Assembly (NCBI RefSeq): GCF_028712425.1
Contig: NZ_JAQTQD010000009.1
Coordinates: 1-64,000 of the forward strand
Direction of reading: 5' to 3'
Length of the DNA stretch: 64,000 nucleotides
Source: Methanoregula sp.
Lineage (GTDB): Archaea > Halobacteriota > Methanomicrobia > Methanomicrobiales > Methanospirillaceae
Translations under genes and position numbers: made by a program
Notes under the pieces: model-generated
Told to the model about the DNA's origin: nothing
The model's database searches: none
The model's input: only the letters and a program-made list of their open reading frames with translations
Part shown: positions 9,895-64,000 of the stretch, piece by piece
Layout of the letters: each line of letters begins with the position of its first letter
How positions within the stretch are numbered: the stretch's first letter is position 1

Positions 9895-10068
9895 CGGGTT
9901 TCCTGAAGGGTATCGTGCCTGTTCGGTGTAACCCTCCGGATCTTCATCCTCTCCGACTGCCTGCTCTCCCCCGGTGTCCCGGCCGCCCTGCTCCCGGTTC
10001 TGAACCTCGTCGCCTTCCTTGTTTCCCTTGCCGGGATCTGTCTCGTTATCCGCGAGAAGACTGCGTAA
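9895..10068 (+). pseudogene. C-terminal remnant of a small membrane protein paralogous to 54555-54803
   Basis: Plus strand CLFGVTLRIFILSD...LPVLNLVAFLVSLAGICLVIREKTA*, versus YLFGVTFLLFALFDY...IVNLVAVLAALTGMYLVLQDT; upstream part frameshifted. Confidence 0.6.
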
Positions 10069-10097
10069 ACAAATTAGATCAAAAAATTCCGGGGATT

Positions 10098-10234
10098 TCA
10101 GGTGATTTCCAGCTTCCCGAGCCACGCCCCCGGCTCCTTCACAACCGTACCCACAACCTTCGCCCTTTCGCTATCTTCATGATGCACGTCACGCTTTTCT
10201 CAGGCGCAATGTTCACTTATCCCATGCCCATGGT
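10098..10234 (-). pseudogene. Decayed duplicate of the purM 3' end
   Basis: Minus strand MGMG*VNIAPEKSVTCIMKIAKG-(fs)-AKVVGTVVKEPGAWLGKLEIT*, versus PurM MGMGFAYVVPEKSVACVLKMVKGAKVVGEVVKEPGAWLGEMEIT*. Confidence 0.85.
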
Positions 10235-10238
10235 AAAT

Positions 10239-10385
10239 TTAAATCTCCTTCTGGTACATCACTACGTCAAGGACCTTCCCGAACTTCTCGCCAATATTTT
10301 TCAGGTGTGCACACTTCGAAAAGCCGGCCTTCTCCATCAGCCGGATGCTTGCCCGGTTATCCCCGCAGATGTTCCCGGGTGAGTC
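10239..10385 (-). pseudogene. Remnant of GNAT acetyltransferase C-terminus (copy B)
   Basis: Minus strand PGNICGDNRASIRLMEKAGFSKCAHLKNIGEKFGKVLDVVMYQKEI*; no N-terminal domain upstream. Confidence 0.75.
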
Positions 10386-10661
10386 GGGGAACGTGATTGG
10401 GTTTCATTTTGATTAACCAATTTGAGTCCAAAATATTAGTTTATGTCACAAAACAAAATAAAAAAATTAATAATAAAAAAGATCCTATTAAATTTGATCA
10501 GGACGATACCAAAGACAGTCGCCACCTGATATAACAAAAAAAGCTGAGCTCACCAAGCGACGAAACTGTGTTGAGCCCGCCTTGCCCGTAGGCATGGAAC
10601 AATTCACTTCTGTACTGAAGAAGATTGTGGTCATGCCTCTAAAATCAAATCAAAGAGAGGA

Positions 10662-12485
10662 ATGGAACACATGATCACCAGACTTTCTCTATTCCGAGGT
10701 ATCATTGCGTTATTAATTGTGACATGTATTATGTCCGCAGTCAGTGCTGCTAACACAACAAATGCAACGTATTTCAGTGAGATCACTTCGAAGGATAAAT
10801 TATCAACGACCGGATTTGAAGCGATTCAACAAAATCAAACTGAATGTCCTTCCCCCTCAATTACTGGGAGGCTCCTGATTTGTCGCTCCAATGAAAGCGT
10901 TATCGCTGTATATGATAGACACGGGAGAAAAATATTTACTGCCGAGGATTTGAAAAAAGGAGCATCTGAGAATGTCCTATCTCAATTTTCAACACATGTT
11001 AACGAGAGAGTATATGGCTCAAATCTTGTTGAACGTGCAATTAATGGCCAATTTGATCAGGTTAAGATAACCTTTGAACAGTACTTATCGTATATCGAAA
11101 CCGGTTGTTGGGATCCTCCCACCCCTGCTGGATGGGCATTCATTGGAGATGAGGAAGATACTTCCATGTATTGGGAACCTGACGATTGGTCTTCAGAATC
11201 TCACTCAGATTACCATGCTGCAGTATTCTTCAGTCATTATGGACATCGAAGTGGAATTCAAACCACCCTTGATGCCTCTGGAGGACAGTATATACGTATA
11301 GCAGTTGGGCCCAAGGGAGATAACCCGTTAGAAATATTCCTTGATGACATTCTCATTGGAAATATAACTGATAATTTCTCGATTCAGCAATTTGATATTT
11401 CCAGCCAATCCTGGACAACAACAAGTATTTTAAAGATAGTTGCTGCCGGAGGAAGTGAGGAGTGGGGTACTGGTTCTCTGGTAGAGAACATATCCTTGAT
11501 GGCGAGTGACTCCCTTAGTGACCCGGTATCTTTGTTTGATGGCAATCCCCTTTTTGGGAATGCCCCGCTTAATGTATCATTCACGGATACTTCTACCGGA
11601 TCACCAACATCGTGGAACTGGTCATTTGGAGATGGCGGGATATCAACACTGCAGAACCCGTCTCATGTATATACAATGGCCGGAACCTACACTGTGAGCC
11701 TGACAGCAACGAACGCTGCCGGAAGCAATACAACAGTTCGCTCTGGATATGTGAATGTGACGGCCCCGGCACAAACAGCGTTCTATGTATATGCTGAAGG
11801 AGTCGGGATGTATCATAGCACGCAAAACGATCTGAGTCTGGGGAACCAAACCCCGGGACATTTCTATAATCTCATCAATGGTCAATGCGGGTCTGTCGAT
11901 ACTGAAAAATGCTGGTATGGGCGGGGGATATATCTCGATGACAATGCCGGTTCAGTTCATTGGAGTGCCGCCGAACAGGCAAGCAGCTATGCCGATAATG
12001 CGGATTTCTCTGTATTTGTCGGGCACGGATGGAATAACGGGATAGTCTTCGGCACACAGAATTCCGCTCTGGAATTATCCCGTTCAAATATGCAGTTTGG
12101 GGGCAACCGGGCGAAATGGGTGACGTTCTTTGCCTGCGATGTGCTCAACCAGAGCAGCCAAAGCAACTGGGAATCTGTATTTAACGGCGTGCACATCGTG
12201 AACGGGTTCGATACGCATGGGTTGTTGTACGATGGACAGGGAACGAAGTATGCGCAAAAATTGACGGGTGACGGAGCAGAAGATCGAAAACCAATCCGTA
12301 CTGCTTGGAGAGAGACACTTCAGGAAACTATCAACAAAGAATACATCAAGGGGGCTTACATGTGGGCAAATCCCTGCGGTAGTGATTACCTTCCGGGTTT
12401 CGGTGATTATTGTTCCGCTCCAACAAAGGGCGGTCAGGGAGATTACGACATAACGTGGCGGAACTTCAATTGTACAATTTCCTAA
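10662..12485 (+). CDS. Exported PKD-domain protein with C-terminal DUF6345-like/clan-CD-like domain
   Basis: Signal peptide (LFRGIIALLIVTCIMSAVSA); PKD domain PLNVSFTDTSTGSPTSWNWSFGDGGISTLQNPSHVYTMAGTYTVSLTATNAAGS; C-terminal VFVGHG...VTFFACD. Confidence 0.8.
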   Translation: MEHMITRLSLFRGIIALLIVTCIMSAVSAANTTNATYFSEITSKDKLSTTGFEAIQQNQTECPSPSITGRLLICRSNESVIAVYDRHGRKIFTAEDLKKGASENVLSQFSTHVNERVYGSNLVERAINGQFDQVKITFEQYLSYIETGCWDPPTPAGWAFIGDEEDTSMYWEPDDWSSESHSDYHAAVFFSHYGHRSGIQTTLDASGGQYIRIAVGPKGDNPLEIFLDDILIGNITDNFSIQQFDISSQSWTTTSILKIVAAGGSEEWGTGSLVENISLMASDSLSDPVSLFDGNPLFGNAPLNVSFTDTSTGSPTSWNWSFGDGGISTLQNPSHVYTMAGTYTVSLTATNAAGSNTTVRSGYVNVTAPAQTAFYVYAEGVGMYHSTQNDLSLGNQTPGHFYNLINGQCGSVDTEKCWYGRGIYLDDNAGSVHWSAAEQASSYADNADFSVFVGHGWNNGIVFGTQNSALELSRSNMQFGGNRAKWVTFFACDVLNQSSQSNWESVFNGVHIVNGFDTHGLLYDGQGTKYAQKLTGDGAEDRKPIRTAWRETLQETINKEYIKGAYMWANPCGSDYLPGFGDYCSAPTKGGQGDYDITWRNFNCTIS

Positions 12486-12498
12486 TGAGGTGAAAGCT

Positions 12499-13494
12499 AT
12501 GAAAAAAGAATATGTTATCGGATTATGCCTGATCTTAGTAATTGCAGGAATTAGTGGATTTGTTCTTTGGCTTCAGCCATCAAGTAATCCTCAAAAAGGA
12601 CTAACCAATGACTCTCTTCAAGAACAATTCCAGAGCATATCCGGGGAAGTGGCGGGAGGATCGTTATCCTATAAAATCGATTTCAACACCAAGAAACCAA
12701 ATTCACCGGAAAAGATCGAAGTCTATAAGACGGTTCAGCCGAAGGTAACGAAAACCGATGCTATTGCGTTGGCACAAAAATTTAATATTACAGATTTTGC
12801 TGATATCAAGGAAGGTGATGAAAAAATATCAGTTTCTTCGAAAGACATGAGGTATTGTTTGCAGCTTTTTAAAACTGGTGGAATGTCCTATAGCGATTAT
12901 AAACGATCCGACACACCAAATGGAATTGACATTGCGGAAAACCTCCCTTCCGATGAAGAAGCTAAAAAGATTGCCACATTGTTCCTGAAAGAAAGAGGTC
13001 TATTACCCGATGGTGCGAAAATGGGGGGAGTTATCCATGAGAAAGCGTATAAATCAAACAAGAGCAGCGAATTAAAAACGGTTGTCTGGGAAGATATCCT
13101 CGTCTATTACACCCGCGAGCTCAACGGCATGAAAGTCGAGGGAACCCAGTTCGAAGTGGAAGTTGGGGGGCATGGCGATATCATCCGGTTCTTCTCCAAC
13201 TGGAAGGAATACGAGTCTGTCGGGGAGTATCCAATCAAAACCCGGGATTCTTCAGTCGAGACCCTGAAACAGAAAGGGATTTCAGCCGCAGCCGGTCCGG
13301 ATAAACCCGACACCATCACCATCGATGAAATATACCTGGCATATGAGACAAACGCTGTTGCGTACAAAGAGGAGTATCTGGAGCCTGTCTGGGTATTCAA
13401 AGGAGAAGCATTGAAGAACGGAACTTCACTCGGGCCGGTAAAGGAATTTGTTCCGGCACTTACTGATGCCTCAAAGAAATCCCTCTCATCATAA
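12499..13494 (+). CDS. Exported/membrane-anchored hypothetical protein
   Basis: N-terminal TM MKKEYVIGLCLILVIAGISGFVLWL; gaggtga RBS before ATG at 12499; coupled to the preceding ORF. Confidence 0.7.
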   Translation: MKKEYVIGLCLILVIAGISGFVLWLQPSSNPQKGLTNDSLQEQFQSISGEVAGGSLSYKIDFNTKKPNSPEKIEVYKTVQPKVTKTDAIALAQKFNITDFADIKEGDEKISVSSKDMRYCLQLFKTGGMSYSDYKRSDTPNGIDIAENLPSDEEAKKIATLFLKERGLLPDGAKMGGVIHEKAYKSNKSSELKTVVWEDILVYYTRELNGMKVEGTQFEVEVGGHGDIIRFFSNWKEYESVGEYPIKTRDSSVETLKQKGISAAAGPDKPDTITIDEIYLAYETNAVAYKEEYLEPVWVFKGEALKNGTSLGPVKEFVPALTDASKKSLSS

Positions 13495-13532
13495 TTTTTT
13501 ACACCGATTCTCAGTGTAACAAAGGAATCACC

Positions 13533-14197
13533 ATGAACAACCGGATTCCAGTGTTGGTAATTACAGCGATACTCGTCATTACCGTTGTTTTCGCGTACGT
13601 CTGGATTTCCGGACCATCAGAGCAAAAGGGATCAATAACTATTGAAAAATCATTTATGAATAATTCTAATAAATTGGCCTTTGCGAATTCAAGCCTCATT
13701 TTTTCCCCCGGAGATAAGAGGTGATATCCAAACCTTTCAGAGAAATATTCAATCGATCTCGAATGGTGGGGATTCGATCCGTATTTTTCTGAAATTGATC
13801 TTATTGCAGTTGGTATCCATAATGCAAGTGTGATCAAGGAACTCCAAGGAAAAGAAATCGGGAATTAGAGGATTCATATTTTCAATGATACAGAGATTGA
13901 ATCTACCCGATCAGAAGTCAGAGCATATTTAATGGAGCTCTATAAAAACCGGAATACCGGATTGGGCCTTTTGGCATGGATAATCACGGTTCAATTGTAA
14001 ATCCAACAGGGTCCTATGTAGAGTTGTGGGTATACAAAATGACTGAAGAAAATAAAAAAAAGGATAAAACAATGATGAAGGGGTGGAAGATTCTCGTCTA
14101 TCCGGTCTCTCCGCCGAGACCGGAAAGCAGAAATTCCTCGAGCAATGCCTCTCCGATACCACTCTAATAATTGCACCGACAAAAAGAGAATTGTAAG
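13533..14197 (+). pseudogene. Multiply frameshifted exported hypothetical protein
   Basis: Starts MNNRIPVLVITAILVITVVFAYVWISG...; reading continues in other frames (YSIDLEWWGFDPYFSEIDLIAVGIHNASVIKELQGKEIGN* ... GSIVNPTGSYVELWVYKM ... ETGKQKFLEQCLSDTTLIIAPTKREL*). Confidence 0.7.
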
Positions 14198-54554: not shown

Positions 54555-54803
54555 ATGGCACTATCACTGGTTGTAACCCCGGTTGCCATGCTCCTTGAGC
54601 TGGTCATCTGTGTCCTTGGATTGTATGTGGGCTATACAAAGAAGAAGTCCTACGGGTACCTCTTTGGAGTGACGTTCCTCCTGTTTGCCCTGTTCGACTA
54701 TCTTGGCCAGGCCGGCCTGAACGCTGACAGTCTTGCCATCGTGAACCTGGTGGCCGTCCTCGCCGCTCTGACTGGGATGTATCTTGTGCTTCAGGATACG
54801 TGA
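54555..54803 (+). CDS. Small three-TM membrane protein
   Basis: 82 aa hydrophobic; decayed paralogue at 9895-10068. Confidence 0.7.
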   Translation: MALSLVVTPVAMLLELVICVLGLYVGYTKKKSYGYLFGVTFLLFALFDYLGQAGLNADSLAIVNLVAVLAALTGMYLVLQDT

Positions 54804-54975
54804 CAGGCGATTTCCTTTTTTCATGCGTTCTCCAACAGGGTGGATCCGTTCAATCGCATTTTTGGAGATCATGAATGCGGTTGGCCGCTCGCAGTGCGAT
54901 CCTGTTCAGATTTTTTTGATTTTTTTCCGGTTTGAAAAATTTTCAGCGCGAAAATAATCCGGAATGAAAACCTTC

Positions 54976-55090
54976 CCCTGCCCGACCCCCCTTGGCTTCG
55001 CATGGAGGGTTTATTGGGCATCCTTACGTCGCAGATTCCACAGGAAATTATGGTGTTTTTTGCCTACCTGAAAAGGGGGGTCGGGCAGGG
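54976..55090. repeat. Long inverted repeat in intergenic region
   Basis: Perfect 18-bp arms ccctgcccgacccccctt (54976-54993) and aaggggggtcgggcaggg (55073-55090); imperfect AT-rich arms extend outward. Confidence 0.85.
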
Positions 55091-55362
55091 TAAAACCGGA
55101 AAAAAACGATCGCGTTTGAAAATTTTTTTGAAATTTTTTCCGGTTTTTCCGGCGTACTGAAAGGATTTAGCGACTCAATCGGGTACCAGGGGGCTCCGTT
55201 TCAATCCCCTGCTGCATCCCCCTACTCATATACCGGGCACGGTTTTTCCCAGACGGATAATCGAAGGTTCATACAATTTTAGTAATCCTGGTTGTGATCG
55301 CCCATGCCTGACACAAGGGGATCATTTTATGGTCCGGAATACGAATCACTCCCTGTCATACC

Positions 55363-56583
55363 ATGTCAGCGAAACTCCAGCTCCTTATCCTCATGCTCGC
55401 ACTGACTGCAATCCTCGTTGCAGGTTGTACCCAGCCGGCTCCCGCTTCAGGATCCACGGCCACGGCCCTGAACATGACCGTTCCGTTTGCACCGGTCCCG
55501 GTCCCTGCCGGGAGCGGGATGCAGCTTGCCTATGAACTCGAACTCGTCCCGGCAGATGGCAGGGTGCCAGTTGTCGAAAAGGTAGAAGTGTTCGATGCTG
55601 CTACCAAAACTGTCCTTTTCACTGCAGACGGGGACCTGCTTGCTGCGCTCTACCACCCGGCTGCCGTCCCACCCCCGACACCCGCGGAGCTCCAGGATGG
55701 GACGGGAAAAGTTCCCATGCCCCGCGTATCTGTCTGGTTTGTCGTTAAGCCGGATGCCGTACCGGACCGGCTTGTCCACCGGGTCACCCTGAACCGTTCG
55801 GCTTCCGGCCTGCCTCCGGAGACAGTCACCGGCGGTGAAGTTGCTGTGCGTAAAGATGCTGCACCGGTTGTCATCGGGGCCCCGATGTCCGGCCCGGGCT
55901 GGATGGCCATGGAGACAACATCGCCCTTCACCCACCACTTCTCTGCCCAGATCACGATAGGCGGCGTGACCCGGGTTCCCCAGCGGTACGCCCAGGACTG
56001 GATCCTTCTGGACCCGGTAACAGGAGCGGCCGCGAAGGGCAATTTCACGCTTGCCCGTAACTATTTCGGGTTCGGGAAGGAACTCTATGCCGGGGCGGAC
56101 GGGACGGTTGTCGCAGCCCTGGATGGCCTGCCGGATATCGAGACGATCTACTCGGCCCCGCCGGCAACCCTTGACACTGCTGCCGGAAACTTCGTGATCA
56201 TCGATGTCGGGAACAAGAAATACGCATGCTATGCCCACATGGTGAACGGGTCCGTCCGGGTGAAACCCGGCGATGTTGTCAAGGAAGGGCAGGTGATCGG
56301 TCTCATGGGTAACAGCGGGAACTCCGATATCCCGCACCTCCATTTCCAGGTCGTGACGGACACGCCGTCATTCCTGGGTGCAGAGGGATATCCCCACGTG
56401 TTCCGCTCGTTCGATTCCCAGGGCGGGGTCCACATCAACCGGGCCATAGAACGGCAGGCCAGCCCCGGCTATACCATGACACAACTCTGGTCAGAGATGG
56501 GAGAATTCGCGGAATATCTGAAAACTCCGGTCCCCCGGCAGAACATGCTGCCGGAGAACAACGAGATCGTCAGGTTCCCCTGA
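55363..56583 (+). CDS. M23-family peptidase lipoprotein (paralogue of 35078-36268)
   Basis: Lipobox ILVAGCTQ; YACYAHMVNGSVRVKPGDVVKEGQVIGLMGNSGNSDIPHLHFQV; collinear with the 35078 protein throughout. Confidence 0.88.
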   Translation: MSAKLQLLILMLALTAILVAGCTQPAPASGSTATALNMTVPFAPVPVPAGSGMQLAYELELVPADGRVPVVEKVEVFDAATKTVLFTADGDLLAALYHPAAVPPPTPAELQDGTGKVPMPRVSVWFVVKPDAVPDRLVHRVTLNRSASGLPPETVTGGEVAVRKDAAPVVIGAPMSGPGWMAMETTSPFTHHFSAQITIGGVTRVPQRYAQDWILLDPVTGAAAKGNFTLARNYFGFGKELYAGADGTVVAALDGLPDIETIYSAPPATLDTAAGNFVIIDVGNKKYACYAHMVNGSVRVKPGDVVKEGQVIGLMGNSGNSDIPHLHFQVVTDTPSFLGAEGYPHVFRSFDSQGGVHINRAIERQASPGYTMTQLWSEMGEFAEYLKTPVPRQNMLPENNEIVRFP

Positions 56584-56739
56584 CCGGCTTTTCCTTTTTT
56601 TCACCAGTGCGATCGGGCTGCGGGAGGGAGTAGGGAGCCCGGGAGTGCGACAACTCCCCCGCATCTATTTCCCGGGTACTATCTCTGTTCCCGCAATGCT
56701 GATAATCTAAGAATCCAATAATCTAAGTCGTGAGCATCA

Positions 56740-56955
56740 ATGCCTGACACAACGCTGGTCAAGGTATCATCCAAGGGGCTCGTTACCCTTCCGAAAAAAA
56801 TCCGGACAGATCTCGGGATCGAAGACGGCGATTACCTGACCATCTCCTCGGATAAGGACAAGATCATCTTCCGGAAAGCCAGGATCGAGATCGATTACGA
56901 GAACCCGGACGATGCGTGGAAGGAACACGCACACCGAAGGCTGGCGCATGACTGA
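56740..56955 (+). CDS. AbrB/MazE/SpoVT-family DNA-binding protein (orphan antitoxin-like)
   Basis: LVKVSSKGLVTLPKKIRTDLGIEDGDYLTISSDKDKIIFRK. Confidence 0.85.
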   Translation: MPDTTLVKVSSKGLVTLPKKIRTDLGIEDGDYLTISSDKDKIIFRKARIEIDYENPDDAWKEHAHRRLAHD

Positions 56956-57436
56956 GCCGGCATCATACTGCCGGTCCGGGCACCCGCTCTCATGCCTCGG
57001 GGATCCGATGCCTGTGTTCTCCGCCCGGATGTCAACAGAACGTTGCTGTACATTACCTCACCAATTCCCGTCGTAAAACCTTGATCTGTTCCGGAACAAT
57101 TACCGTGTTTTTCCTTTTCATAGCCTCTGCCAAAATGGGGGGGTGAGGCAAAACTCGTACAACGGGGCACGATACGTGCTCCGTTTCATCAGAAACGGTG
57201 CTTGAGAAGAACCAACCGGTTCTTCAAGGGGCCGGAATTTTTACCCCGTGGAGAGGGGGGTGGGGAGAGTGGGTTATCGACGGAGGGGGAATATGGGGAG
57301 GGAATCCCCCCGCCCCGGTTGTTCGTCTGCTGTACAATTCTTCAGGCTAATGCCGCCACGGTGTCCGCCAAGGCCTCGACTTTGCTCCGGATCCCTTGAG
57401 GGAATGAGGGTGCAGGAGAGCCGGAAAATTTAAGGG

Positions 57437-58009
57437 TCAAACAGATTCTCTTCTTTTCACTTGTTTATGCCGTTTGTTATAGCGGGGTAGCATTTTCAGA
57501 CATTGGATAACTTCCTGATCAGAAGTTACACCATAAACACGGTCATCAGGAATATCAGGATAGCGGGTCCGAGAGTCAATTTTCTGATCGGCAAGTTTTC
57601 CGCTCCATCCATCAACCCGACACGCAATTATCAGCCGATTTAAAGCCCAGGCATTTGCCATCTCTGCCAGAGTACCGGCCCCCCCGCCAATTGCAATGAC
57701 CGCATCCGCATTCGCGACAATTAGATTTCGTGCGAGATCCAGACCGGTAGGTATACAAATATCGACATAGACATTCGCATCACCAGGATCACTGCCGGGA
57801 AGAATTCCGATGATATCACCATGTTTGTAACGAGGGGAGTTTCGTGCTCCTTTTGATGCCGCTTCCATTACACCCCCGAGACCTCCTGTTACCAACCGGT
57901 ATCCATTATCAATAAGACTCCGCCCAATCTTTTCGGCGAGAAGATACTTTTCTGAATCCTCCCGAATGTTTGCATCCCCGATAACGGCAATTGATTTTTG
58001 TTCCTTCAT
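57437..58009 (-). CDS. LOG/SLOG family protein (TIGR00725-like)
   Basis: SIAVIGDANIREDSEKYLLAEKIGRSLIDNGYRLVTGGLGGVMEAASKGA...ADAVIAIGGGAGTLAEMANAWALNRLIIA. Confidence 0.88.
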   Translation of the reverse strand: MKEQKSIAVIGDANIREDSEKYLLAEKIGRSLIDNGYRLVTGGLGGVMEAASKGARNSPRYKHGDIIGILPGSDPGDANVYVDICIPTGLDLARNLIVANADAVIAIGGGAGTLAEMANAWALNRLIIACRVDGWSGKLADQKIDSRTRYPDIPDDRVYGVTSDQEVIQCLKMLPRYNKRHKQVKRRESV

Positions 58010-58680
58010 GAAATCCTACGCTCCGTTTTGAATGAATACTCCGCATTTTTAAACTGAATTTCGGCATTGTCAGAATTCACTGATAGAACAATGCCGTTAA
58101 GGAATTCTATGGCCTTGACATGTTTCCCAAATATGGTGAACACTAAAGGGAACAATGTTATGTCGTGAGCAACGACAACAAGCAGGTCTCCGGGCTGAAC
58201 AGCAGGGTACTTCAGTAATTTACCCAATACCTCGTCTGTATACTTCCGGGGATTCCAGATAGTATCCTCCGGCAGCTCGGATCGCAGCCATTGTTGAATT
58301 AGTCCCTGCCATCCGAATTCATTTCTCAGTTTAACGAGATTATTCAGGTTCACAACAGGACTTTTTATCTCAGGCTCACACCCGAGAACCCTTGTCTGAT
58401 TTAAAGAAGAGAACCCTTCCTGTATTGAGCAGGCTGTCATCTCACACCGTTTTGCGACAGTGTGCCCGAGGAGCAACTGTTTTTTGGGAGCAACCTGCCT
58501 GATGGATTTACCGAATTCCCGTGCCATCTGGACACCCTCAGGATTAATTCCAATGGTATCACGCAGATGATCGGGAATACCACCGAATGAGTCCCTTTTT
58601 GAATGACGTATAAGGACAATCGTTTTTTCATTAAGGGGGGCCTCATCGAGAAGATCAAGAACATAGGCGCCAGCTTTCAT
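58006..58680 (-). CDS. Histidine phosphatase family protein
   Basis: TIVLIRHSKRDSFGG (RHS catalytic motif) and LLVVVAHDITLF; ATGA overlaps on both sides. Confidence 0.82.
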   Translation of the reverse strand: MKAGAYVLDLLDEAPLNEKTIVLIRHSKRDSFGGIPDHLRDTIGINPEGVQMAREFGKSIRQVAPKKQLLLGHTVAKRCEMTACSIQEGFSSLNQTRVLGCEPEIKSPVVNLNNLVKLRNEFGWQGLIQQWLRSELPEDTIWNPRKYTDEVLGKLLKYPAVQPGDLLVVVAHDITLFPLVFTIFGKHVKAIEFLNGIVLSVNSDNAEIQFKNAEYSFKTERRIS

Positions 58681-61600
58681 ACCCAACCTCCATTCGTTAC
58701 ACCGTCGGTTTTCTTAAGCGGGGTTTTTCTTATTATCTGACCGATAATATCCTCGCGCATCAAACGGGTACCGGTATTTTTTTCTCCGGTGGGTTCATAG
58801 AAATACAACTTTTTGTCGATAAAGACCGGGTGGTGTGCCATCTCGACCATGGGAATCATGAAGGCCCAGTCTTCTGCATAGGGAATCCAGGTATCCCCGA
58901 TTTTCATGTATGACTCAGGAATCGAATCAAACAGGAATTTCCTGAACGATCTCAGGTGCTGCCAGACATTCCCGCCGCGGGCTCCCCGGGGATTCGTGAA
59001 CATTGCTTTGTAATCACACCATTTGTCGGTTCGAATCATGGACCCGACGGTGAGATCGGCTCCATCATCGTACACCTTCCTGAGCTGACCGATAATATCG
59101 GTCCCTATCAGCGCGTCATCGGCATCCAAAGTAATGATGACACTTTCCGGGTTCGAACAGATATCCCGAATTGCGATGAGGTTGTTTTCCATAGATGTGA
59201 GAGAATTCCCGTTGAAGAATACCCGGGCCCCCTCTCCGAGTGCAGGGGCCAGGATTTCACTGATGTATTCAGGGATGGGATTGGACGATCCAGCATCGAT
59301 GAAGACAATCCCGAAGCAATGGTCCTGTTGCCGGGCAACCGAATCCATGCAGCGTCGCATCCTGGAGACCGGGACATCCTTTCCACGGATGATGAAAATA
59401 TACTCGGAATCGAGCGGGATAATCCAGTCAGCAAGTCTGCCCACGAGATCAACAGAATTGTTCTGGATTTCCGGAACGTGATTTCGCTCGATACTCCTGA
59501 CGACATTATACCAGAAATTAATATCGGATTTTTTATCGTTGGGAACATGGACGAAGAAGGTCCGGCAGTCTCCTCCGCGATAGGATTGCCATGACGATTG
59601 TGCCAGTCTGGCATCAAGTGCCCTATGCCAGGGATACTGCAGGGTCCCATCATGTGTCAATCCGTTCGGGAGGGGGAGCACTTCCTCCAGCCGATCTTTG
59701 GCGAGAAGCGAGCATCGTACTTCCGTCCTCCACTTTTCCCCGGCCCTACCTGGAGAATACGGTTCATTCCCGTTTTTTGCTATGTTGAATGATATCGTGA
59801 CTGCCATGGGATCTGACTGGAGAACATCGATCATCTCCCCAAGATAATCATGATCGCGATCCTTGCGTCCGATGAGACAATCGCTGTCCATCTGGAGAAT
59901 GTAATCGCCTTGGCACTGGTCTACCCCGAACAATGACATGAAGGTTGGCTGTCCGTTTTCACATCGCGGGTTTGTGCAGGCAATACCGAACCAGTTTTGA
60001 TAAGTCTCTTCAATGGTCGCAGGATCGTCCGGGACTATCACAAAACGATCGATGACACCTTCGGCTGTAAGGCGCTCCAGCCTTACTTTGAGTTCTGCCA
60101 CATCTGCCGGGGCATACTCCCGGGAGAATGGCCCGGTGAAAGTGTCCGTAATAACGATTTTCTCGAAAAACCTCTGGGGCCCCTCCAGTTGATTGACGAT
60201 ATGGCGGATCTGGAAATCTATGGATTCCCACTCCATTGCACCCGCACGGATGAGGAGCGATACCTTTTCGTCTCTTGGGAGTTGAAGCGGTTTCACCTTA
60301 AGGAGGAGGAAATCGCTTGACGGGCAGAGATTCGGGATATCTGTCGTCCTTACCTCCTCGATTGTTTCAATCTCAAATCCCTGACGGTGTATCTGATGCT
60401 TGTACCATGAGAATGGCCGGTGGCACTCCGTCCGAATTTTACCGGTCTCCCTCATTTTTTTCTGATAGGTAAAGGTTTCCTGGTAATGAGAGTCATCCGG
60501 GATGTCCAGTTTCACATGTGTTTCAGATTCCTTTACAAATGATGAGAAGGGGTTGCAGAGTGCGATAATGGCTTCGCCGTCATCAGAAACCAGCGACCGG
60601 ATATCCTGCAGCACCTCCTCAGCCTCGGAATCGTTGCTTATGGTACAGAGAACCAGGCTGCAGATCACCCGGTCAAATTTTATTTCCTTCTCCTTCAGAA
60701 CTGCCAGCTCTTTTGAACCGATGTAGTGTGCCTTGACAGTCTCTTTACAGTTTCTGGCAAGAACAGTCCGGTCCAGATCATACCCGGTAACCGAAAATCC
60801 CTTTTCCGCCAGGGCTTCTGCTATGGAACCCCGGCCGCACCCATAGTCGAAAATGCTGGAGGGGTTTGCCTCCGATACAAGGCGCACAATGCGCTCATTG
60901 ACAAGATTATTCTTGGTTTTTGTCTTTGTCGATTCGTAAAAATACTCAAATCCGCACAGTTCCGGCAGATTCCCATCGAAGAGCGCGATCGACATCACAT
61001 CAAAGAGGTCTGCCCGGAAATGCCATCGGTACATGAGATATGCCCTCCGGCACATCTGGAGGAACTCGCTGTCATTATACGGGACAATCGAATCACCGAT
61101 ATCCACAAGTTTGAGCGTGCCGTCACTGACAACAAAATTCCGTGGGTGGAAATTCGTGAATGCAATACCGGCATCGCGGCATTCTGCAAGAACGGAGAAT
61201 ATGTCCTGCAGGTACCCTCCCGAATATTCCTCTCCCTTTTCAAAGGAGAGGACAAAAATCAACTCTCCCTCATCCTCGATGATTTCCTTGAGTTGGCACA
61301 TATGACACAAGGCAGGGTTGTTCAGGACCCTGGCCCTGATAACATCAAGCCGCCCGTCCTGAAAATTTGCCCGGCCAGCGTAGAAATATTTGTAGGCATT
61401 CGTGCCATCGGTGAAAACGGCTCCTTCGTGGCCATGCCCGACATAGGACAGAGGTGCCGTGATATCAACAATCTTCTTCTGAACGATTCTTTCAGTGATG
61501 ATCCTTGCCCGATCAACCTGCGCCGGCAGTACATCCTTTGTAAGGGCTGATCGGTAGGTTTTCACATGCCCTTTGAACTGCATGAGGAATCGTCGAAGGT

Positions 61601-63875
61601 CCTGCCCATTCCAGGCCATTCCCTCACGATGCAGGCTCCAGATATTCTTATCCGAATACATTTCTTTAAGTGATTTCAGGAATGTGAGGGCATTCTCTGC
61701 TCCCTGCCCTTGGGAAAATGAATCAGACTGCAACACCTTTTCAATCGAACCGATGAGTCCCTGAATCCGGTATGCGTTCATGACGAATTGGGTGAGCCGC
61801 CCGGTCAGATGGCTATTGAACGAGGTGCAGACCCGGGCGATATCCCCCTCTTCCATTGAAAGTCTGATCCTGCGGGGGATTGAGCCGGTCTCTTCAATTT
61901 TTTTCTCATAGTACTCGTCCATGGCACGGACATATGCACTTCCGTAAAAATCAGCAAGCAGGGAATCAAAGTTCATGACACCCACCGCTTCAGCGGTCCG
62001 TTCCTGCCTGACCGCAAGAGGGAAAATCCCTACCTTGTTTGCCCGAACCCGATTATTGAGAATACACCAGAAGGTATCCCCGCGACGGGCATTCAGCCTC
62101 CCGATCCTGGGAGAGATGTTGGGAAATTCCCGCAGGCATACCGGATTGAGCACAAGGGTATTACCACCTCGCGGGATTATTGATCGGGAACCTGATAGCG
62201 ATCCGCCACAGGTCGAGTGATGCGGAACGGCGACGGGCCGGGTCAGGTTCCTGCCATAACCGATGGCGGGGATCTTCCGGATACTATCCCTGCCTTTGAA
62301 CGGAGGGACCGGCAGTTCGAGGTGGGCCGCATGCTCACTGGAATAATCATAGTAATAATCGGGAAATGCTCTGCTGAGCTCAGCGATTGAATTCCGTGTT
62401 TGAGAGACGGGATAGGCCGACACTGTAGCATCCGATGCGATCATACGCTCCTGCTCTTTCAGCGCGAAGAAGAGATCGAGCAGTTGAACCCGCATTGTGC
62501 TTTGGACCGGGAGCGGTGCATCCCCGGTGATTTTCCCAACGGCAATACTGATCCCCTCACTGCGTAACCGGCCGATGGTATTCTGCAGATCCGCAAGGGA
62601 GAGTTTCACAATTTCATTATCCGTTGTCAGATACTCAAGACGGATATCGTCATCGAGGATCCAGACCACAGAACCCGGTATCTGCCGTGCCTCCTTGTAG
62701 AGGTAATGGTGAAGGACGGTTCTTCCCGATGAGATCCCTTTTCGCTGCTCTTCATCCTGCAGATAGGATCCGAATGTTCCCTTGTCGCACTCTTCATCAA
62801 TGGTTCTGCTGCTGATACACACACAGTTCAGCGACCGGTAGTTTTCCGAATCGAGGAGTCGGTCGAGGTCTGGCGTGGATGGCGTGTTATCGCAGACGAT
62901 CACCCGCCGTTGAGCGGAAGAGTTTTTGAAAAACTCCACAAGATCGTCAAGCAGGTGTTGCGTGGAGCTCATCCGTGTTGCAATGAACCCGATGACAACA
63001 GGGATTTGCGATACGACAGGCGCATCTGGGGATTTATGAATGCAATCCGGCAGACTACCTCCAAACCGTCGTTGGGATTCCTCGATAGTACATCCAAAAA
63101 GGTCCCGGGCCCGCTGCCGGAATGCCTCACGCTCCGGTTCGGTCATTCTCGGGGCGTATTTATTGTAGAATCCCGCAAGGCCCTGTTTTTTCCGGGGGGA
63201 TCCGGGCTCCGATAACCGGTTTGTATCGGGAATCGCCCAGTGATGCACCAGATGTTTTCTCACAAATCCGATGCGGCAGGTATCGAGATCGAGCAGCCGT
63301 ATGCAGACATCCCGGTCTGTTGTGCTTTCCAGCGCTTCATCAAATCCCCCGGCATGAAGAAGGGTCGAGAACCTCACGAAGAGATTGGAGCCCTGGACAT
63401 GGGGATTCCGGATGAGAAAATCGTGCGCTAACAGTGTATCAGGGATCGTAAGAGGGATTCCGCTGTCTCCGGTTCTTTCGTGGCGGATGAGACCGGAGAC
63501 AACAACATCACAGCCTTGTGATTCGGCTGTTTTCAGGCATTCCGCGAGATACCCGGGAGACCACTCATCATCATCGTCAAGAATCGCAATCCAGGTCGAT
63601 TCCGGAACAACACCTGCCTGTATGCAGGAATACAGACCGGTGTTTATTGCCCCGGAGAGATTGTCCGTCCTCTTGTTCTTAATAAAATGAATCTCGGGAA
63701 GGATACTGGATGCTTCATGAACCACATCCCGTGTCTGGTTCTCGTGATTGCTATCACAATCGCTAACAACAAGGATGGTATCCGGTTGCTTTGTCTGCTT
63801 GGCGATCGAACCGAGAGCCCGTCTCAGCAATTCAGGCCGGTTCTTCGTTGGAATAAGTACGGCAAGGTGCGGCAT
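58677..63875 (-). CDS. Giant multidomain protein: four GT-A-like glycosyltransferase segments, kinase-like domain, SAM methyltransferase
   Basis: 1732 aa. GT2-type AVLIPTKNRPELLRRALGSI...ILDDDDEWSPGYL; second VWILDDDIRLEYL; kinase-like YVGHGHEGAVFTDGTNAYKYF...FTNFHPRNFVVSDGTLKLVDIGDS; MTase SIFDYGCGRGSIAEALAEKGFSVTGYDLD; further LQMDSDCLIG and ITLDADDALIG. Confidence 0.88.
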   Translation of the reverse strand: MPHLAVLIPTKNRPELLRRALGSIAKQTKQPDTILVVSDCDSNHENQTRDVVHEASSILPEIHFIKNKRTDNLSGAINTGLYSCIQAGVVPESTWIAILDDDDEWSPGYLAECLKTAESQGCDVVVSGLIRHERTGDSGIPLTIPDTLLAHDFLIRNPHVQGSNLFVRFSTLLHAGGFDEALESTTDRDVCIRLLDLDTCRIGFVRKHLVHHWAIPDTNRLSEPGSPRKKQGLAGFYNKYAPRMTEPEREAFRQRARDLFGCTIEESQRRFGGSLPDCIHKSPDAPVVSQIPVVIGFIATRMSSTQHLLDDLVEFFKNSSAQRRVIVCDNTPSTPDLDRLLDSENYRSLNCVCISSRTIDEECDKGTFGSYLQDEEQRKGISSGRTVLHHYLYKEARQIPGSVVWILDDDIRLEYLTTDNEIVKLSLADLQNTIGRLRSEGISIAVGKITGDAPLPVQSTMRVQLLDLFFALKEQERMIASDATVSAYPVSQTRNSIAELSRAFPDYYYDYSSEHAAHLELPVPPFKGRDSIRKIPAIGYGRNLTRPVAVPHHSTCGGSLSGSRSIIPRGGNTLVLNPVCLREFPNISPRIGRLNARRGDTFWCILNNRVRANKVGIFPLAVRQERTAEAVGVMNFDSLLADFYGSAYVRAMDEYYEKKIEETGSIPRRIRLSMEEGDIARVCTSFNSHLTGRLTQFVMNAYRIQGLIGSIEKVLQSDSFSQGQGAENALTFLKSLKEMYSDKNIWSLHREGMAWNGQDLRRFLMQFKGHVKTYRSALTKDVLPAQVDRARIITERIVQKKIVDITAPLSYVGHGHEGAVFTDGTNAYKYFYAGRANFQDGRLDVIRARVLNNPALCHMCQLKEIIEDEGELIFVLSFEKGEEYSGGYLQDIFSVLAECRDAGIAFTNFHPRNFVVSDGTLKLVDIGDSIVPYNDSEFLQMCRRAYLMYRWHFRADLFDVMSIALFDGNLPELCGFEYFYESTKTKTKNNLVNERIVRLVSEANPSSIFDYGCGRGSIAEALAEKGFSVTGYDLDRTVLARNCKETVKAHYIGSKELAVLKEKEIKFDRVICSLVLCTISNDSEAEEVLQDIRSLVSDDGEAIIALCNPFSSFVKESETHVKLDIPDDSHYQETFTYQKKMRETGKIRTECHRPFSWYKHQIHRQGFEIETIEEVRTTDIPNLCPSSDFLLLKVKPLQLPRDEKVSLLIRAGAMEWESIDFQIRHIVNQLEGPQRFFEKIVITDTFTGPFSREYAPADVAELKVRLERLTAEGVIDRFVIVPDDPATIEETYQNWFGIACTNPRCENGQPTFMSLFGVDQCQGDYILQMDSDCLIGRKDRDHDYLGEMIDVLQSDPMAVTISFNIAKNGNEPYSPGRAGEKWRTEVRCSLLAKDRLEEVLPLPNGLTHDGTLQYPWHRALDARLAQSSWQSYRGGDCRTFFVHVPNDKKSDINFWYNVVRSIERNHVPEIQNNSVDLVGRLADWIIPLDSEYIFIIRGKDVPVSRMRRCMDSVARQQDHCFGIVFIDAGSSNPIPEYISEILAPALGEGARVFFNGNSLTSMENNLIAIRDICSNPESVIITLDADDALIGTDIIGQLRKVYDDGADLTVGSMIRTDKWCDYKAMFTNPRGARGGNVWQHLRSFRKFLFDSIPESYMKIGDTWIPYAEDWAFMIPMVEMAHHPVFIDKKLYFYEPTGEKNTGTRLMREDIIGQIIRKTPLKKTDGVTNGGWV

Positions 63876-64000
63876 TGTATCTCACACCGGCTTAATGCGA
63901 CCTGTTTTCAATTGACTGCGGAACGGGGGGTTTTGTATTAACAACCAATCGGGAATTCTGATGGTTCTCGTTCACCGTTTCCACGGCCCTGAGCAAGGGT

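Follow-up and report, generated by a model that had tools for sequence, protein, structure and literature searches.

A horizontally mobile operon encoding a 1732-aa glycosyltransferase, kinase-like and methyltransferase protein in Methanoregula sp., and its rearranged relatives

Two bacterial proteins are the closest described counterparts of the locus analysed here. In E. coli O9a, WbdD is a protein of 708 aa with the order methyltransferase-kinase-coiled coil, the glycosyltransferases (GTs) being carried on a separate protein (PMC3482155). In Klebsiella pneumoniae O7, ORF6 has the order methyltransferase-kinase-coiled coil-GT-GT, with D441 as catalytic Asp and ABC transporter genes in the same cluster, and it shows that polymerisation and termination can be fused in one protein (PMC11231755). 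The statement in a first-pass annotation that no described system of such composition was known must therefore be narrowed, as ORF6 joins a methyltransferase, a kinase and two GT2 modules (PMC11231755). Open-access literature searches returned no match either for the gene combination described below or for TIGR00725, the family of its LOG protein, which does not prove absence.

The window (the whole 64,000-nucleotide stretch of DNA that was analysed) contains most of a four-gene minus-strand operon of Methanoregula sp. encoding a dehydrogenase, a megaprotein, a histidine phosphatase and a LOG/TIGR00725 protein. The first-pass annotation had listed three of these genes, joined by two ATGA overlaps, and re-checking of the window coordinates showed both overlaps to be exact (58677-58680 and 58006-58009); that list of three genes stands but had missed a fourth co-directional gene past the window edge, the dehydrogenase (contig ~64740 to 63892), which stops 16 bases ahead of the megaprotein start. 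The features are as follows.

54704..64000, no strand: part of a ~10.3-kb operon-bearing insertion (gap in a congener, G+C)
57437..58009, minus strand: LOG/TIGR00725 (SLOG cluster 4) protein, 190 aa (Pfam, TIGR00725 score)
58006..58680, minus strand: histidine phosphatase of branch 1, 224 aa (motifs, fused homologues; ATGA overlaps on both sides)
58677..63875, minus strand: megaprotein, 1732 aa (single open frame, full-length relatives)
63066..63875, minus strand: GT1, aa 1-270, DDDDEW motif (Pfam Glycos_transf_2)
61881..63023, minus strand: GT2, aa 285-665, putative GT-A fold, LDDDIR and RGGN/RRGD motifs (motif, context)
61461..61913, minus strand: helical region, aa 655-805 (conserved only in the megaprotein form)
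60906..61463, minus strand: kinase-like domain, aa 805-990 (profile matches to solved protein kinases)
60306..60923, minus strand: SAM-dependent methyltransferase, aa 985-1190, motif I DYGCGRG (Pfam Methyltransf_23)
59406..60293, minus strand: GT3, aa 1195-1490, MDSDC and RGGD motifs (profile, system marker)
58680..59408, minus strand: GT4, aa 1490-1732, LDADDA motif (Pfam Glycos_transf_2, E 7.5e-8)
63892..64000, minus strand: 3' end of the nucleotide-sugar dehydrogenase gene (282 aa), extending to ~64740 outside the window

The 1732-aa ORF is uninterrupted in one frame, and five other genomes conserve it over its whole length (94.5, 63, 63, 61 and 56% identity), so that it is not a chance ORF; the independent full-length relatives also led to a sequencing artefact being dismissed. 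None of the three window proteins has a hydrophobic segment of sufficient length to cross a membrane.

The megaprotein has the order GT1-GT2-helical linker-kinase-like-methyltransferase-GT3-GT4, and support for the domains is uneven, being clear for GT1, GT4 and the methyltransferase, by profile for the kinase-like domain, and weaker for the two other GTs. GT1 and GT4 are GT2-family domains in Pfam, each with a DxD-type motif (best stretch aa 6-143, whole-protein E 4.4e-33); GT1 is elsewhere fused to the dehydrogenase or encoded by its own gene, and GT4 is distantly akin to it (hhalign probability 94%). The Pfam match of GT3 was marginal (E 0.016), and this domain forms a well-conserved family with invariant DxD-type and RGGDxR motifs. 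The second domain (LDDDIR region) gave no Pfam or PDB match and is a putative glycosyltransferase on the strength of its motif and context; it matches part of a Pseudoalteromonas protein (E 7e-43). The helical region had no Pfam match. AlphaFold2 models from a two-sequence input were unusable, with mean pLDDT values of 37.5 (aa 285-990) and 32.8 (aa 1190-1732).

A kinase fold is indicated by profile comparison of the kinase-like domain with solved protein kinases (best E 1e-4 and 8e-6), and its G-loop, Lys, Asn and DxG were invariant across 10 sequences. The HRD Asp is replaced by Asn in eight of the 10 and is kept in two, as it is in G616, a distant methanogen. Specifically, the window protein reads FTNFHPRN, and all full-length relatives read have FTNFHPRN/KN with Asn at this position. 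The methyltransferase matched Pfam Methyltransf_23 (E 4.2e-10) with motif I intact, and SAM motif I was present in all full-length forms examined. The three Asp-bearing relatives had no recognisable SAM motif, and the canonical catalytic Asp and canonical SAM motif occurred together in none of the 11 members examined. The defensible claim is limited to this last statement, and a description as “reciprocal decay” of the two domains was toned down, because members of the split and bacterial types carry Asn in place of the HRD Asp and lack a methyltransferase altogether. These findings bear on a WbdD-like surface-polysaccharide machine, in which the GTs would polymerise, a methyl-phosphate cap added by the kinase and methyltransferase would set the chain length and the phosphatase would edit the cap. 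The kinase, methyltransferase and GT make-up does resemble WbdD/WbdA and especially Klebsiella O7 ORF6 (PMC3482155, PMC11231755), and the phosphatase is genetically tied to the kinase, but the Asn in the window protein and its full-length relatives, the lack of a full capping pair in any member, a kinase lying ahead of the methyltransferase and the failure to recognise a Wzm/Wzt-type ABC transporter gene in the annotated neighbouring loci make such a machine decidedly unlikely. WbdD-like capping within one chain had been suggested in the first-pass annotation; the composition on which this was based is confirmed, but not the catalytic Asp or the pairing of canonical sites.

Of the partner enzymes, the LOG protein matched Pfam LDcluster4 (1.1e-32) and scored 116.9 bits with TIGR00725, above the curated cut-off of 106.9, and retains the LOG-type core Arg and Glu (ARN...GGGAGTLAE). 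To our knowledge, no TIGR00725 member has a tested activity. The phosphatase alone fell below the Pfam cut-off (E 0.053), and its motifs RHS, HTVAKR, CEPE and VAHD were invariant in five copies. A profile of the window-type phosphatase matched fused His_Phos_1 domains (9e-20, 7.5e-13 and 2e-9), and its identity is confirmed by these homologues, which score 6e-17, 9e-17 and 6e-8 in Pfam; the RHx motif and second catalytic His of branch 1 were found through the same homologues and motifs. The dehydrogenase is the upstream neighbour in all mega-form loci extending that far and keeps the catalytic Cys motif GKCVPKD; a fused homologue is of TIGR03026 type (2.9e-46). In five genomes carrying a dehydrogenase-GT1 fusion, GT1 takes the place of the dehydrogenase UDP-binding domain.

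The operon, 4-base overlaps included, was seen again in five genomes drawn from four genera. The LOG gene adjoins the megaprotein in all six testable genomes (those with contigs extending past the megaprotein) and the phosphatase gene in five of six megaprotein contigs, the latter being found in only five of the 10 carrier genomes. Conservation of both genes next to the megaprotein, put forward earlier as a test, was therefore seen in the megaprotein form, but neither the split nor the bacterial forms have the LOG gene. In three distant methanogens (G248, G472 and G616) there are dehydrogenase-GT1 and kinase-GT3-GT4-phosphatase fusions, and in G090 and G112 the parts are separate genes; although the gene boundaries shift, the parts stay collinear in the order dehydrogenase-GT1-[GT2]-kinase-[MTase]-GT3-GT4-phosphatase. 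Since the same partners fuse in differing ways, a shared pathway is suggested, and the proposal that the genes form one unit is upheld by the recurring operon together with the fusions of phosphatase to kinase and GTs. The G616 cluster also has an NTP-transferase and two SDR epimerases, and that of G472 one SDR, suggesting that nucleotide sugars are involved.

The gene set is rare and patchy. The GT3 profile, the best marker of the system, matched 10 of 231 genomes of the order and 8 of 394 of the phylum in a bimodal manner (~1e-113 or better, else none). The operon is horizontally mobile: it sits in a ~10.3-kb insertion (54704 to ~64999) absent from a congener, G181, where the flanks lie ~170 bases apart as an empty site, and G+C is 48-50% at 58-62 kb, lower than the 54-58% of the adjoining sequence. 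Rearranged versions occur on plasmids of Pseudoalteromonas and Salinivibrio, and transfer between domains is apparent from these bacterial copies. Viral contigs scanned with the kinase and GT3 profiles yielded no relatives and phage records nothing beyond a generic GT, on which grounds a provirus was dismissed. The same scans count against an anti-phage or inter-strain conflict locus, in which a nucleotide signal would be sensed or destroyed by the SLOG protein while the glycosylation enzymes modified a target in the phage or the host. Conflict systems often contain SLOG and NADAR domains, the patchy, mobile distribution would fit, and the LOG protein gave a weak PADLOC match to PsyrA (3.4e-5), but the megaprotein matched nothing in PADLOC beyond a generic methyltransferase fold (mad2, 2.2e-8), and a conflict role is considered highly improbable.

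A further explanation is a natural product, either an oligosaccharide or of nucleoside type, that is secreted and for which phosphorylation would shield the producer, the phosphatase would activate the product and N-glycosidases would supply or clear the base, an aminoglycoside-like logic. The N-glycosidases would be LOG here and RibA-NADAR in Pseudoalteromonas, whose operon carries a GTP cyclohydrolase II-NADAR protein, an asparagine-synthase-like enzyme and an arylamine N-acetyltransferase; the one or two radical SAM enzymes borne by relatives, the SDRs, the NTP-transferase and the patchy, plasmid-borne distribution point the same way. However, no resistance or export gene was recognised beside the operon, LOG and NADAR occur in separate lineages, and we know of no such product from methanogens, so that this explanation appears unlikely.

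The reading preferred here, still a tentative one, is a soluble cytoplasmic assembly line, encoded by a horizontally moving gene set, that makes a defined, uronate-containing glycoconjugate. Counting in its favour are the retained collinear order with its varied fusions, the nucleotide-sugar genes added in G616 and G472, the catalytic Cys of the dehydrogenase, the lack of transmembrane segments, the bacterial plasmid copies and the empty site in the congener. The dehydrogenase would make UDP-uronic acid or a related compound, to be used first by GT1, whether fused to it or adjacent, and GT2, GT3 and GT4 would add further residues serially on one polypeptide. The methyltransferase would O-methylate the product, and the kinase-like domain may bind ATP or a phosphorylated intermediate, in Asp-bearing relatives probably phosphorylating it, after which the histidine phosphatase would take a phosphate off that intermediate. 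A step confined to the megaprotein form would be the clearing or processing of a nucleoside monophosphate by the LOG protein, which has no obvious place in the assembly-line scheme. We infer that all GT domains serve one product, and likewise the sequence of the steps, the presence of uronate, the solubility of the product and all substrates; the product may alternatively be a lipid-linked surface glycan. A bolder and doubtful extension is that modular glycoconjugate factories form a so far undescribed family spanning two domains of life, with substrate channelling by a GT in place of the UDP-binding domain of the dehydrogenase, a kinase-like domain without its catalytic Asp acting beside the phosphatase as phospho-intermediate carrier or non-kinase catalyst, and a new class of soluble sugar or sugar-nucleoside metabolites in methanogens and marine bacteria.

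The locus belongs to a rare, mix-and-match family of sugar-assembly gene sets in methanogens and marine bacteria, no description of which was found in the literature searched. If the preferred reading is true, a mobile and recombining set of interchangeable modules for a sugar-based product is common to methanogenic archaea and marine bacteria. The fusions predict consecutively acting enzymes and hence testable intermediates, and the repeated Asp/Asn switch in the kinase-like domain, together with a SAM motif that is lost in the members keeping Asp, is a natural experiment on domain roles.

Among known systems, the window LOG protein shares the SLOG fold family and the core Arg and Glu with LOG phosphoribohydrolases such as BP1253 (PMC6864091), and has GGGAGTLAE in contrast to their PGGxGTxxE. 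The phosphatase resembles branch-1 histidine phosphatases (His_Phos_1) in its RH(S/A), second His, Glu and Arg motifs, with a weak match to the heptose phosphatase Ais/PmrG; unlike these enzymes generally, it is a dedicated partner or fused domain of a kinase/GT protein. The dehydrogenase shares the NAD-binding and central domains and catalytic Cys motif of TIGR03026 UDP-glucose/UDP-ManNAc dehydrogenases but, unlike their three-domain architecture, ends after the central domain, lacking the C-terminal UDP-binding domain. As in WbdD/WbdA of E. coli O9a, a kinase is joined to a SAM methyltransferase and works with multi-GT enzymes, but the order of N-terminal methyltransferase, kinase and ruler is replaced by kinase, methyltransferase and two GTs; we know of no histidine phosphatase or LOG partner of WbdD. 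Klebsiella O7 ORF6 comes closest, as a single large polypeptide with a methyltransferase, an unusual kinase domain and GT2 modules, whereas the window protein has the order GT-GT-kinase-MTase-GT-GT with Asn in the kinase loop and, with no exporter recognised, is flanked by dehydrogenase, phosphatase and LOG genes.

The contig holding the operon (C41) belongs to an archaeal genome of 2.67 Mb, probably of the order Methanomicrobiales given that a Methanogenium MAG is the nearest relative with a name. Re-reading of the sequence bore out, with exact positions, the three minus-strand genes with ATGA overlaps described in the first-pass annotation, and the extended contig (locus L032) revealed a fourth, first in the operon and ending 16 bases ahead of the megaprotein. 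This encodes a member of the UDP-glucose/GDP-mannose dehydrogenase family, which retains the catalytic Cys motif and stops after the central domain, the UDP-binding domain being missing; in five other genomes (G090, G112, G248, G472 and G616) the first glycosyltransferase-type domain, GT1, is fused to the dehydrogenase where the UDP-binding domain would be.

About 64740 to 63892, minus strand: truncated nucleotide-sugar dehydrogenase, upstream of the megaprotein (entry L032:6892-8007, contig 63892-65007)
58677-63875, minus strand: megaprotein, 1732 aa
aa 1-270: GT1, significant Pfam match
aa 285-665: GT2 (domain label), invisible to Pfam
aa 655-805: helical region
aa 805-990: kinase-like domain, profile match to solved protein kinases
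aa 985-1190: methyltransferase, significant Pfam match
aa 1195-1490: GT3, barely detectable with Pfam
aa 1490-1732: GT4, significant Pfam match
58006-58680, minus strand: histidine phosphatase
57437-58009, minus strand: LOG/TIGR00725 protein

Given these Pfam results, the four glycosyltransferases originally proposed become two shown (GT1, GT4) and two putative (GT2, GT3). For the kinase-like domain, matches to solved protein kinases came only from profile searches (E 1e-4 at best with eight sequences, 8e-6 with ten). At the position of its catalytic Asp, the window protein has Asn, as do the remaining full-length forms, the split forms and the two bacterial proteins, and Asp itself stands there in G248, G472 and G616; an intact SAM motif I is confined to full-length forms, so that both canonical sites occur together in 0 of 11 members. 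Since in a WbdD-type cap a phosphate must first be added and then itself be methylated (PMC3482155), precisely that chemistry is unlikely here, barring an Asn form that stays active as a kinase, and the WbdD-like capping first suggested was not upheld. A WbdD-like surface polymer is likewise an unlikely product. The window proteins have no membrane spans and no exporters were recognised among the neighbouring genes, which favours a soluble process. Over all rivals we tentatively prefer a soluble assembly line that would make a defined uronate-containing glycoconjugate.

The strongest evidence that the phosphatase is part of the kinase/GT machine, as anticipated, comes from three distant members of the phylum (G248, G472 and G616), each encoding a protein of about 1100 aa with, in order, a kinase-like domain, a stretch without recognisable SAM motif, GT3, GT4 and a histidine phosphatase, the last matched by the window phosphatase profile at 9e-20, 7.5e-13 and 2e-9. 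The dehydrogenase-GT1 fusion adjoins this protein in all three, and the G616 cluster adds an NTP-transferase and two SDR epimerases. G090 and G112 encode the kinase-like domain and GT3 in genes of their own and have dehydrogenase-GT1 as a fusion. On a short contig of G012, GT3 has a radical SAM protein and another GT for neighbours; these two accompany the G090 and G112 genes also, with an additional radical SAM/SPASM (N-twitch) protein. Two conserved radical SAM proteins (L051:11118-12065 and L051:16188-17030), one with a SPASM/twitch domain ahead of the radical SAM domain, go with split forms and are absent from the megaprotein form.

The bacterial forms were drawn from plasmids. That of Pseudoalteromonas donghaensis (L049:15986-22508) carries GT1-kinase-GT2, then RibA-NADAR (a GTP cyclohydrolase II-NADAR fusion), an asparagine-synthase-like protein and an arylamine N-acetyltransferase, and looks like a small-molecule pathway. 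A small-molecule natural product, a reading that overlaps with the glycoconjugate, is doubtful for the window operon. The Salinivibrio kushneri plasmid encodes GT1, a GT-kinase-GT3-GT4 protein and a radical SAM protein, with adjoining transposases. A conflict system is very improbable.

In a protein-level search covering 232 genomes of the order, full-length relatives with 56-95% identity came from the window's own genus and from three other families. The phosphatase and LOG genes adjoin the megaprotein downstream, with 4-base overlaps, in G159, G093, G086 and G110, in keeping with the initial proposal; G067 has LOG and lacks the phosphatase there, and the G099 contig ends within the megaprotein gene. 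This G099 gene falls into two frames, with the break in the kinase region (L038:2078-4750), through mutation or assembly error. Copies from G067 and G099, of different families, are 91% identical, whereas those from G099 and G110, of one family, are about 50% identical; identity thus out of step with taxonomy points to horizontal transfer. In a GT3 tree the megaprotein form is a single clade separate from the split form; G090 and G086, of the same genus, have different forms. GT3 profile matches were all-or-none: within the order 10 of 231 genomes had one, in a phylum sample 8 of 394, and in another order 2 of 186.

In the congener G181, the left (to 54703) and right (from 65000) flanks lie only about 170 bases apart, giving about 10.3 kb extra in the window genome, and operon G+C is below that of its surroundings. 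The aminotransferase gene beside the operon (L032:8000-8470; alignment ending at contig 65448) is shortened at its 5' end relative to G181, which means that more than one rearrangement took place at this site. Read by eye, the inserted segment left of the operon holds an M23-like peptidase lipoprotein (55363-56583) and a small AbrB-like gene (about 56740-56956). Two other low-G+C stretches (1-2000 and 10001-14000; 43-45% against 53-63% across much of the remaining window) are possibly further acquired segments.

WbdD combines methyltransferase, kinase and coiled coil, with the multi-GT polymerase as a separate protein (PMC3482155). Klebsiella O7 ORF6 holds a methyltransferase, a divergent kinase, a coiled coil and two GT2 modules in one chain and is demonstrated to cap with methyl phosphate (PMC11231755), so fusion of such activities has precedent and the first-pass remark that no described system with this composition was known needs tempering. 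The window system differs from both in domain order, truncated dehydrogenase, dedicated phosphatase, LOG partner and archaeal-bacterial module exchange.
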